Shown here: piece by piece, positions 25,983-63,650 of the stretch
Numbering within the stretch: position 1 is the first letter of the stretch
Layout: each line of letters opens with the position of its first letter
Source: Halorhabdus amylolytica
GTDB lineage: Archaea > Halobacteriota > Halobacteria > Halobacteriales > Haloarculaceae
DNA: 64,000 nt
NCBI RefSeq assembly: GCF_004944975.1
Contig: NZ_SPQG01000014.1
Span: forward strand, 1 to 64,000
Direction: 5' to 3'
Notes under the pieces: model-generated
The model's database searches: none
What the model was told of the DNA's origin: nothing
The model's input: only the letters and a program-made list of their open reading frames with translations
Translations under genes and position numbers: made by a program

Positions 25983-26948
25983 TCAATACGTTAGCGACTG
26001 CGTGGAGTGATCAAGCGCGAGGACTGCGCCGGCCCCGATAGTTCCGGCCACGAGAACGCCAGCCAGCCACATCGGTCCTGCGTTCGCCGAGGCCCCGAGC
26101 ACGTCGCCGGCCGGTTTCCGGAGGGAGCCGACCATCAGGGCGATCAGGAACGTCAGCGTCGCGGCCCTGTAGTTGTCCAGTGCCCATCGGATCAGCCGTG
26201 CGAACGCCAGTAGCCCGACCAGACCACCGACGCCCGCCACGGCGACTGTCGTCGCCGGCGCGAGCACCTCCTCGACGGTCCAGGTCCCGGTGACGAGTCC
26301 GATGAGTCCGTCGACGAACGCCTTGAGTTCCCCGGTGAAGTGTTCGTAGAGGCCAAAGAGGTACAGGAAGAACGCGCCCGAGACGCCGGGCAGGATCATC
26401 GCCGAGACCGCGATCGCCGCGGCACCGAAGACGATCGGAAGTATCGGATCGCCCCCGCCAGTGTCCCGCGTTGCCCCCGCAACGAGAAACGCGGTCCCGA
26501 ACCCGACGACGCCGGCGGCGACGCGACCGGGAGAATCGAGCGCGAGTAACTCTCGAAGGACGACGGCGGAGGCCCCGATCAGCCCGAAGAAGAAGGCTCC
26601 CGTCAGCCCCGGAGCGGTCGTGATAGCCGTGTGCATGAGACGCGAGACGGCAACGATCGACGTCAGGACGCCCGTCCCCAGGACCACGAGGAACGGGATG
26701 TCCATGGCGAGGAGGTGACCCTTGAGAGACTGTCTCCCCTTCGTGCTGTGAATCCGGAGCAGATGTCTGGCCGCTCGCGGATCCAACGCGGCGACGGCCG
26801 CGATCAACCGCTCGTAGATGCCGGTGATGAACGCGATCGTCCCACCCGAGACGCCCGGGACCGAGTCGGCGGCCCCCATCGCGACGCCTTTCAGGTAGAC
26901 GACGAACCACGCTCGAACACCCGGTCGATCCCGCTGTCGGTCCGTCAC
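25983..26948 (-). CDS. DUF368 polyprenyl-phosphate transporter (PopT family)
   Basis: 321 residues, GTG start overlapping the aglB stop (GTGA, 26945-26948). Eight or nine helices with the repeated family motif GAADSVPGVSGGTIAFITGI and AVSAMILPGVSGAFFLYLFG. Bacterial DUF368 proteins (PopT) return undecaprenyl phosphate to the cytoplasmic face. Translational coupling to AglB, which releases dolichyl (pyro)phosphate outside, suggests that this protein recycles the dolichol carrier. A second copy is at 62290-63303. Confidence 0.9.
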   Translation of the reverse strand: MTDRQRDRPGVRAWFVVYLKGVAMGAADSVPGVSGGTIAFITGIYERLIAAVAALDPRAARHLLRIHSTKGRQSLKGHLLAMDIPFLVVLGTGVLTSIVAVSRLMHTAITTAPGLTGAFFFGLIGASAVVLRELLALDSPGRVAAGVVGFGTAFLVAGATRDTGGGDPILPIVFGAAAIAVSAMILPGVSGAFFLYLFGLYEHFTGELKAFVDGLIGLVTGTWTVEEVLAPATTVAVAGVGGLVGLLAFARLIRWALDNYRAATLTFLIALMVGSLRKPAGDVLGASANAGPMWLAGVLVAGTIGAGAVLALDHSTQSLTY

Positions 26949-61096: not shown

Positions 61097-61387
61097 TCAG
61101 TCCAGTGCACCAAGGTGAGTAGCTGCCTCACGTACAATCTGCTCGACGGTATCCGCTGCTAGTTGGCCTTCTATCTCGTGAATATCGGCGTGTTTGATCG
61201 TAACGAGGATCCAGGGATTGACGTAGCTCTCGCGGGGAAGTCCGCCACTCGTGAAGTCCGTGTCGGCGAGTGGAATCGCTGCTGAGCGTCGTGTCGCCGT
61301 GACGACCGCATAGACGGCTTCTTCGTCACGAAGGGGCGGCGTTTCTGTACTCCAGCAGGCGTAGAATACCCGAAACGAGACAGACAT
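61097..61387 (-). pseudogene. N-terminally truncated MazF/PemK-like toxin
   Basis: 96 residues from MSVSFRVFYACW. From about residue 15 the sequence follows archaeal PemK/MazF proteins (RDEEAVYAVVTATRRS, IPLADTDFTSGGLPRESYVN, IKHADIHEIEGQL). The usual first strand (GDVV...RPxLVV with the catalytic residues) is absent, and no antitoxin is adjacent. So it is probably a remnant rather than an active ribonuclease; a different N-terminus cannot be excluded. Confidence 0.6.
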
Positions 61388-61436
61388 ATTGGATGATATA
61401 GCAACATATAGATGTATAGTGTTTTCATTTGTGGAT

Positions 61437-62134
61437 ATGGAAAGACGAACTGTTTTGGAAGCCATTGGGGCGGGAGGAATCGGCATGTTAGCGAACACTG
61501 TCGCGGCTAAGCCTGGGGGGAAAGAGAATCCTAAGAATACCAGACAAGTTACTGCACAATCAGAAACTAGCGAGGAATCAAGTGTCGTAACGAAGAAACA
61601 AGAGGTGACAGCAAAAGATGCGCGACAATATGTATCAAATATCCCAAACAATTTGGCGGATTCATTAAAGAGGGACAATCTAGTTGAGCATAGCCAAAAC
61701 AATATTGGATATCATCAAATGTCTGATGGTCGTCTACGAGGAGGAATTGAAAATATCAAATAAAGTATTCTGATGGGGTTCTGCATGAGAACGTTCTCAT
61801 ACATAAAGAAACTCCAGATGAAGGCCATCTAACCCTCATGATGCCTGTTGATGATAGGGAGCCAAAAGCATTTTACAAACCAAAAGATGAGTCAAAGACC
61901 GTCCGCTACGACGCATCAGGACGTCGTCAAGTGGAAGAAGAGGAGTCAGTAACTACATCAGGAAGTTGTCACACTCGCAGATGTTACAAATGGTGCCATG
62001 CCTGTTTTGCTTGTTGTCCAGACGTGCATGTTCTTCGTCCGTGTCCAGGTTGTTGGATACCAGGAGAATGCAAAGTAATTGATGAACGGTGCAATGCGCC
62101 ATTCTGCGAAGGAAAGTGTTCAGGGGAGACATAA
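61437..62134 (+). pseudogene. Tat-exported precursor with Cys-rich C-terminal domain, frameshifted
   Basis: Two ORFs join into one: 61437-61763 (MERRTVLEAIGAGG, Tat-like signal) and the frame that runs from 61751 to 62134. Past 61748 the second frame reads KYQIKYSDGVLHENVLIH and on without stop into MMPVDDREPKAFYKPK, clearly coding. One A missing in the run at 61750-61753 restores a single frame of about 232 residues. The last 60 residues contain 12 Cys (including CYKWCHACFACC), suggesting a disulfide-rich secreted peptide, similar in layout to halocin C8 precursors though the Cys pattern differs. AT-rich; foreign origin likely. Confidence 0.65.
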
Positions 62135-62289
62135 GACAGTGACCCTAAGCGGATAGGAGAAAGGCTAAATTGACGTTGTCAATCGCTCTATCAGAGATTA
62201 TTTATATAATCTAAGAATAGAATCCACAAATATTCAAACCCCCTCTGTTGAACCAGAGATAATATAACTATGTAGATAACAGTGTTTCA

Positions 62290-63303
62290 ATGATGCCACC
62301 GAGTGAACGTTCTTCCACGGATATGGAAACTGGTATAGATAGTTCATCTATACTTCGAAGATCTACTAAGATATTTACTATAGGACTGCTTATGGGGAGT
62401 GCCGACGCAGTTCCCGGTATTTCCGGTGGAACAGTTGCACTTATTTCAGGAATCTACGGACGTCTAATCACAGCTGTCACAGCGATCACTCCTCCTCGAT
62501 TTTTTGATTTACTACGAGCAGTACTTCCACTAGGTACTGGCATTTCAAGACAACGTGCTAGTGAACTTCTCAAAGAGTTTGATGCGGGGTTCGTCGCTAC
62601 TTTGCTCACAGGAATCGCAACAGCTGTTGTGATTGTGGGGATAATTATTGAGTACGTAGTGGCACGTGCCCCTGTACTGCTCTTTGGGTTCTTTTTCGGT
62701 CTCATCGCTGCTTCCGCAGTAATTCTCTGGCGAGAACTCACAATGAGGACAATTGGTCACTGGCTGGCAGCATTCGTTGGATTCTCTCTTGCATTCGGAC
62801 TTTCTGGTGGTGTGCAGCTGCTTGAAGGCGGGAGTCTTGTGGTTGTTTTTATTGCAGGCGCGTTCGCAGTGAGCGCGATGATCCTCCCTGGAATTTCAGG
62901 CTCTCTTCTGTTGATTATCCTCGGTCAGTACCTCTCGATGTACGAGTCACTCAACAGTTTCTTGGACGGGATCAGCGGGTTGGTTACTGGTGGTGAATTT
63001 GAAGCGATCATCGCTCCCGGACGCGAAGTTTTTACGTTTCTTTTTGGCGGTTTGATTGGTCTGTTTACTGTTGCACGCCTCATCCGAAGACTGCTCAATA
63101 AGAATCGAGAAGCAACATTGGCATTTCTGGTTGCTCTCGTCTTCGGAGCACTACGAGCACCGATTTCGGAGATTTCTAATATCAAGGATGTGACTTGGAC
63201 AATGGCAACGGTCGTGGAGTTCGGTGGATTAGCGTTCGTAGGGACAATGCTAGTACTCATTCTCAATTGGTATGCGTTAGATATTGACTTCGGCAGCTTG
63301 TGA
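62290..63303 (+). CDS. DUF368 polyprenyl-phosphate transporter, second copy
   Basis: 337 residues. Same motifs as the copy next to aglB: GSADAVPGISGGTVALISGI and AVSAMILPGISGSLLLIILG, with eight or nine helices. Codon use is much more AT-rich than in the first copy, so it came by transfer rather than recent duplication. Downstream of the Cys-rich gene, 155 bp; could be cargo that protects or supplements dolichyl-phosphate recycling. A start at residue 2 or 12 (Met) is possible. Confidence 0.88.
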   Translation: MMPPSERSSTDMETGIDSSSILRRSTKIFTIGLLMGSADAVPGISGGTVALISGIYGRLITAVTAITPPRFFDLLRAVLPLGTGISRQRASELLKEFDAGFVATLLTGIATAVVIVGIIIEYVVARAPVLLFGFFFGLIAASAVILWRELTMRTIGHWLAAFVGFSLAFGLSGGVQLLEGGSLVVVFIAGAFAVSAMILPGISGSLLLIILGQYLSMYESLNSFLDGISGLVTGGEFEAIIAPGREVFTFLFGGLIGLFTVARLIRRLLNKNREATLAFLVALVFGALRAPISEISNIKDVTWTMATVVEFGGLAFVGTMLVLILNWYALDIDFGSL

Positions 63304-63469
63304 GTAACTAACTTCTACAATTCACCGTCCTGGAATCAACAATTCCTGTTAGGATAATTCGCAGGTTCAGTGAGCAACTGGTTCAATATCTCCGGCACGA
63401 AAGAAAAAAGCCGCCGAGCTGCATGGAACCGCTGTATCTTGCACAGACCTTCTGACAGGCCGCAAACGA

Positions 63470-63562
63470 TTTGAACCACGCGAACACGGTCGCCTCGTTT
63501 CACTCGGCGCTGCGTGTTCTCCACTTCAAATCCCTTCGATAACGCTGACAGTGCTCACTGTC
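63470..63562 (-). repeat. Mirrored T-arm element and hairpin behind tRNA-Arg
   Basis: Read on minus after the tRNA: a perfect palindrome GACAGTG/CACTGTC with 2-nt loop (63547-63562), then reversed T-arm CGAAGGGATTTGAA (63529-63542), a GC-rich spacer, and GGTTCAAATC at 63472-63481. Same organisation as behind the initiator tRNA. Confidence 0.75.
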
Positions 63563-63577
63563 GTTCGCACAGAACAG

Positions 63578-63650
63578 CGGGCGCGAAGGGATTTGAACCC
63601 CTGACCTCTTGGTCCGGAACCAAGTACTCTGTCCACTGAGCTACGCGCCC
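63578..63650 (-). tRNA. tRNA-Arg (CCG)
   Basis: 73 nt on minus. Acceptor GGGCGCG/CGCGCCC, D-arm TAGCTCAGTGGACAGAGTA, anticodon stem CTTGG/CCAAG with loop TTCCGGA (anticodon CCG), T-arm GGGGTTCAAATCCC. No intron, no encoded CCA. A TATA-like ttttatcc (complement 63674-63681) is about 27 bp upstream. Its 3' end has been copied into the accessory region. Confidence 0.95.

Follow-up and report, generated by a model that had tools for sequence, protein, structure and literature searches.

We found that positions 61437 to 62134 of the window, a 64,000-nucleotide stretch of the Halorhabdus amylolytica genome that was analysed as a whole, hold a frame-disrupted copy of one precursor gene, as judged from comparison with intact homologues, and that its relatives make up an uncatalogued family of predicted exported, disulfide-rich peptide precursors, in which the interest lies more than in the window copy. 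Our best explanation, to which we give a probability of about 0.6, is that the locus is a disrupted copy of a gene whose product, exported by Tat, would be the precursor of a disulfide-rich peptide, and that in relatives the freed tail would act in a halocin-like manner. The parts of the locus are as follows.

61437..61763, + strand: 5' half of the disrupted gene, with the Tat signal and first part of the pro-domain; stop codon TAA at 61761-61763
61437..61508, + strand: twin-arginine signal, MERRTVLEAIGAGGIGMLANTVAA; RR invariant in the 28-member family alignment
61749..61760, + strand: frame-shift zone; kind and place of the indel ambiguous; homologues align across it
61751..62134, + strand: 3' half of the disrupted gene, with the remaining pro-domain and Cys-rich tail; profile E 8e-15
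61967..62119, + strand: predicted disulfide-rich tail, first to last Cys; 12 Cys, subfamily motif CPxCW; from sequence and alignment

The first reading frame (61437-61763) encodes 108 aa with the N-terminus MERRTVLEAIG, and the second is open from 61751 to its stop at 62134, with its earliest ATG at 61838, past a conserved stretch; by our estimate, a run of 127 codons with no stop would arise by chance in roughly 1 of 1700 random frames at 43% GC. A sequence-only reading of this DNA had already noted that the second frame is stop-free upstream of its first Met, and had merged the two frames into one protein by adding one A at 61750-61753. A single added base does join the halves without a stop, but it may stand at any site within 61749-61760, and a change of -2 bases at the junction fits equally, with the spacing of the aligned homologues suiting the latter slightly better.

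We then compared a profile of five homologues, with the window left out, against 1125 frame segments of the window. Exactly two were matched, 61751-62131 (E 8e-15) and 61365-61760 (E 9e-6), and these are adjacent, on the same strand and in the correct order. Intact single-frame homologues of 220-240 codons from five other haloarchaea align to both halves and span the junction, with E values from 1e-8 to 1e-16:

L005, genome G261: E 1e-16, intact, spans the junction
L006, genome G256: E 2e-13, intact, spans the junction
L007, genome G237: intact, spans the junction
L008, genome G239: intact, spans the junction
L003, genome G080, of the same taxonomic family as the host: E 1e-8, intact, spans the junction

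Because the intact homologues and the window-free profile match both parts, 61437-61763 and 61751-62134 are one gene whose frame is broken, which bears out the merged protein of the sequence-only reading; the search among haloarchaeal proteins that it had called for returned relatives spanning both halves, and none that ends as an intact protein at 61763. That a short Tat gene and an independent gene for an unrelated Cys-rich protein lie side by side here is thus highly improbable: each half does have a stop or start of its own, but the intact homologues carry both halves in one frame, and no Met occurs in the second half until 61838, after the conserved stretch. Programmed frameshifting at 61749-61760 was ruled out because the homologues need none.

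Unless a sequencing error accounts for the shift, the Halorhabdus amylolytica copy, its frame being broken, could not produce its tail. It is possible, if less likely than not, that a sequencing or assembly error is all there is to the disruption and that the window gene is intact and functional, a situation that would be compatible with our best explanation for the family. Apart from the shift, each half reads as open sequence typical of the family, the Cys count of the tail is even, and there are short A runs within the shift zone; these runs are merely 3-4 bases long, however, and broken halocin C8-like genes in three genomes (G206, G405 and G435), together with a truncated relative in G409, make decay plausible. 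The relative in G409 (L169:5535-6167) is close to the window protein, and its tail stops early (CPNCIVNGC, then stop codons); it is probably a second truncated member of the window subfamily. The host genome has no intact or second family member, its other matches being to Tat signals only, and scans of genome contigs and viral contigs, as well as a tblastn search of plasmids, found no close homologue.

The family, defined here by alignment (A4) and iterated profile searches, is large, and the 127 members examined, in 119 loci, are all from Halobacteriales, with several copies per genome in many hosts and tandem members at four loci (L103, L118, L119 and L179). No member was found in 85 genomes outside Halobacteriales (of 100 drawn across the phylum), and no Pfam or NCBIfam model covers the family beyond the Tat signal. 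Part of the family may be among the candidates listed in a survey of antimicrobial peptides of archaea from 2019 (Makarova and others, in mBio). The shared layout consists of a Tat signal, a nearly Cys-free core or pro-domain, and a variable C-terminal tail that carries nearly all Cys residues. In structure predictions, the core (residues 52-158 of member L021) is a unit of about 105 residues with two helices and five strands at pLDDT 85-96, and the tail is unordered. The window gene shares this layout, with its own RR (codons 3-4) falling on the invariant family RR in the alignment and a pro-domain followed by a Cys tail with an even count (12), so that the Tat signal, central domain and 12-Cys tail attributed to the joined product from sequence alone are supported; it departs from the single uninterrupted reading frame of the family (broken at 61749-61760), and its C-terminus is CSGET, with no Trp end. 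Foldseek found nothing significant in the PDB for either the precursor or A5, a neighbouring protein described below, and a second structural comparison of the core returned middling Z scores near 5 (lysozyme inhibitor Ivy, Ugi-2 and monellin), which may represent a common structural arrangement only.

The Cys count of the exported part is even in 126 of the 127 members, with values of 4, 6, 8, 10, 12, 14, 16, 18, 20 and 22 and one member having none; the sole odd count after re-examination is that of L236, with 11 Cys. For a first set of 59 members, the binomial p for even counts is near 1e-16, a value that is nominal because the sequences are related. The Cys number changes many times across the family and remains even. 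Gain or loss of Cys residues two at a time would suit disulfide bonding, and the even counts point to tails in which all Cys would be disulfide-bonded. In most close pairs, core and tail have diverged at much the same rate, which means that a strongly hypervariable tail is not the rule. The mean GC content of family genes falls 7.5 points short of that of their surroundings (p = 3e-8), a pattern that fits horizontal transfer and recalls mobile conflict genes.

Alternatively, the tail might never be freed as a peptide and might bind metal or act in redox reactions, either secreted or on the cell surface, which we regard as quite unlikely. Several tails do carry CPxCW and CxxC pairs, and the tail is predicted to be unordered in the absence of bonds or metal; however, Cys numbers that run from 4 to 22 but stay even, at spacings that keep changing, are better explained by disulfide pairing than by metal sites of a fixed kind, and Tat delivers to the oxidising outside. 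Pfam, NCBIfam and PDB sequence searches, moreover, matched Tat signals only, with no zinc domain for the tail, and no zinc family or solved structure was matched; a Cys domain like that of a known intracellular zinc protein had been named in the sequence-only reading as one outcome that would speak against it.

The best-described point of comparison is halocin C8, whose precursor ProC8 is exported by Tat and yields, once cleaved, the immunity protein HalI and a C-terminal 76-aa peptide (PMC11509114). That precursor has in common with the family a Tat signal, a pro-part and a Cys-rich C-terminal peptide in which the Cys count is even, and in Haloferax its gene is followed by A5, as are several members of the new family. 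The two differ in Cys number and in Cys spacing, the latter already stated by the sequence-only reading, and the family tails are polar whereas the halocin C8 peptide is hydrophobic. The halocin C8 query retrieved records annotated as halocin C8-like, which validates it sufficiently for searching. A halocin C8 profile had no match in the host genome or in the 119 family loci, and hhalign of the family against halocin C8 matched at the signal only, with no match to the HalI part (a very distant relation could escape this comparison). We therefore do not count the window gene or its relatives as halocin C8 family members, as the profile similarity ends at the Tat signal, and we reject homology of the leaders beyond the signal, short of a very distant relation. 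The "halocin-like" label given earlier stands for the layout, is tentative as to function, and would mislead if read as placing the gene in the halocin C8 family.

In three genomes, we also observed halocin C8-like genes whose profile match falls in two pieces, suggesting that frameshift decay of such genes is frequent:

G206:C1:2302822-2303685: halocin C8-like gene, match in two pieces
G405:C1:3540091-3540915: halocin C8-like gene, match in two pieces
G435:C17:51678-52505: halocin C8-like gene, match in two pieces

Two further systems bear comparison. In Haloferax mediterranei, HFX_0892 (HmHapP) is a secreted precursor from which an extracellular protease produces an antagonistic peptide (PMC12893001); compared by description only, its active part is a helical N-terminus, and the paper's text makes no mention of cysteine. 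Haloarchaeal class II lanthipeptides have precursors under 100 aa beside LanM (PMC10105419), and while these too are small Cys-bearing peptides of Halobacteriales, the family consists of long Tat precursors, and no lanthionine-synthetase family appeared among the neighbours scanned against Pfam.

Within 500 bp of the precursor, 33 of the 119 loci have at least one scanned module (ABC-2 genes counted) and 86 have none. Three kinds of neighbour, namely A5, an HExxH protein and an isoprenoid-synthase-like protein, were never found further than 1 kb from the precursor in the examined locus windows, and none of the three adjoins the window copy. ABC-2 transporters were dropped as partners, being frequent nearby but neither concentrated at short distance nor clearly enriched.

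A5 is a protein of about 260 aa with the motif YTGxNRCxPCT, two predicted membrane helices and a CPxC...ESCC...C tail. It adjoins the precursor at seven loci from three taxonomic families, always within 273 bp, and although it is widespread (356 of 392 genomes), in the family-locus windows it occurs solely next to a precursor. In Haloferax lucentense (L191, E 1e-56) and at L197 of G343, the gene immediately after a halocin C8-like gene is again A5, which is intact in Haloferax; in Halobacterium (L192, L194 and L195), A5 stands in broken form next to such genes. At most other halocin C8-like loci, A5 is not within 1.5 kb, so the link between A5 and halocin C8 is recurrent but not general.

L191:6224-7021: A5 beside a halocin C8-like gene
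L197:679-1470: A5 beside a halocin C8-like gene
L192:1863-2457: A5 beside a halocin C8-like gene
L194:2893-3838: A5 beside a halocin C8-like gene
L195:10244-10838: A5 beside a halocin C8-like gene

The second neighbour, a predicted exported HExxH-family protein, lies within 256 bp of the precursor in 9 of 11 cases. The HExxH motif is present in most copies and lost in some, and we consider the protein a candidate maturation protease.

L119:4224-5462: uncatalogued exported protein beside a precursor
L254:2675-3985: uncatalogued exported protein beside a precursor
L269:2731-3966: uncatalogued exported protein beside a precursor
L293:2535-3743: uncatalogued exported protein beside a precursor
L105:5162-6319: uncatalogued exported protein beside a precursor
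L282:4726-5916: uncatalogued exported protein beside a precursor

Taken with the halocin C8 layout, these neighbours suggest a route for the intact relatives. The folded precursor would leave the cell by Tat, the motif for which is seen; its compact pro-domain would keep the tail inactive or protect the producer; the tail would form 4-7 disulfides in most members, going by the even Cys counts; an extracellular protease, at some loci probably the adjoining HExxH lipoprotein, would free it; and the released peptide would act on other cells in the manner of a halocin. By analogy with halocin C8, the family peptides are probably antimicrobial.

The third neighbour is an isoprenoid-synthase-like protein of about 285 aa (E 5e-7 to nonaprenyl diphosphate synthase), found at seven loci and within 277 bp of the precursor at every one of them. 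All seven copies have DDxxD and lack the second DDxxD. Their partner precursors carry a C-terminal Trp in 7/7 cases, mostly as Gly-Trp, while Trp is among the last three residues in just 10 of the 120 other members (Fisher p = 2e-7).

L103:5128-5997: isoprenoid-synthase-like protein beside a Trp-ending precursor
L167:6509-7372: isoprenoid-synthase-like protein beside a Trp-ending precursor
L175:4558-5418: isoprenoid-synthase-like protein beside a Trp-ending precursor
L260:4693-5544: isoprenoid-synthase-like protein beside a Trp-ending precursor
L265:4984-5817: isoprenoid-synthase-like protein beside a Trp-ending precursor
L281:3066-3902: isoprenoid-synthase-like protein beside a Trp-ending precursor
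L287:3012-3848: isoprenoid-synthase-like protein beside a Trp-ending precursor

This pairing of a DDxxD synthase-like protein with a Trp-ending precursor resembles the ComQ-ComX and PalQ-PalX systems of Bacillus and Paenibacillus, in which ComQ has the first Asp-rich motif and lacks the second, and PalQ prenylates a C-terminal Trp (PMC10853753), favouring Gly before it (PMC13290415). The loci here differ in being archaeal, with Tat precursors of 200 aa or more and a predicted disulfide tail. The precursors at these seven related loci are thus candidate archaeal tryptophan-prenylated peptides by analogy, a prediction that we regard as strong; the window gene is not, as it ends in GET and has no isoprenoid-synthase-like neighbour. 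To our knowledge, disulfide-rich, tryptophan-prenylated peptides have not been proposed in archaea before.

These same loci invite the thought that the family members are secreted signals, i.e., pheromones, and not weapons, with the tail sensed by relatives and some tails lipidated on Trp in the manner of ComX. The seven pairs of a DDxxD protein and a Trp-ending precursor speak for it, as does the fact that ComQ and PalQ modify a signal and a RiPP, respectively, in this way. We nevertheless consider it unlikely: the pair is confined to 7 of the 119 loci, the neighbours seen include no conserved sensor or kinase, tails are highly diverse inside one genome, and A5, being common to halocin C8 loci, favours the halocin link.

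The surroundings of the window copy are distinctive in composition and in content:

61250..63500: AT-rich stretch with both genes, 43-50% GC against a window mean of 61%
62290..63303, + strand: VCA0040-like polyprenyl-phosphate translocase, second genomic copy; Pfam PF04018, E 5e-55; directly downstream of the precursor and co-directional
63577..63650, - strand: tRNA-Arg(CCG), bordering the AT-rich stretch on its far side

The GC content is 44% for the precursor gene and 48% for the gene after it, and 61250-63500 is probably acquired, foreign DNA. The translocase is just 41-44% identical to copies in the genus; the host's other VCA0040-like polyprenyl-phosphate translocase, at 26088-26909 (- strand) of the window, is 44% identical to it. 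Upstream of the precursor lies a divergent 96-aa gene (61097-61387, - strand) with no Pfam or NCBIfam match. The order of precursor then translocase recurs at L167 (G224, from another taxonomic family), where an isoprenoid-synthase-like gene lies upstream of the Trp-type precursor. These cases of pairing, though just two in number, suggest that polyprenyl-phosphate may be the target or involved in immunity, and we infer that the translocase at 62290-63303 is a candidate immunity gene.

A broader proposal joins these observations, namely a modular peptide system in which a common Tat pro-domain would be combined with many all-disulfide tails and with a protease, A5 or ComQ/PalQ-like Gly-Trp prenylation, the lipid carrier being hinted at as a target. 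We put this forward tentatively, as an idea somewhat more apt to fail than to hold.

Few haloarchaeal antagonistic peptides are known to us at the sequence level. The window locus is itself disrupted, and its worth is as an entry point to the family. A family with multi-copy genomes, paired-Cys tails and partner genes would widen the pool of archaeal peptides open to testing, and would make peptide maturation, modification and resistance testable in halophiles.
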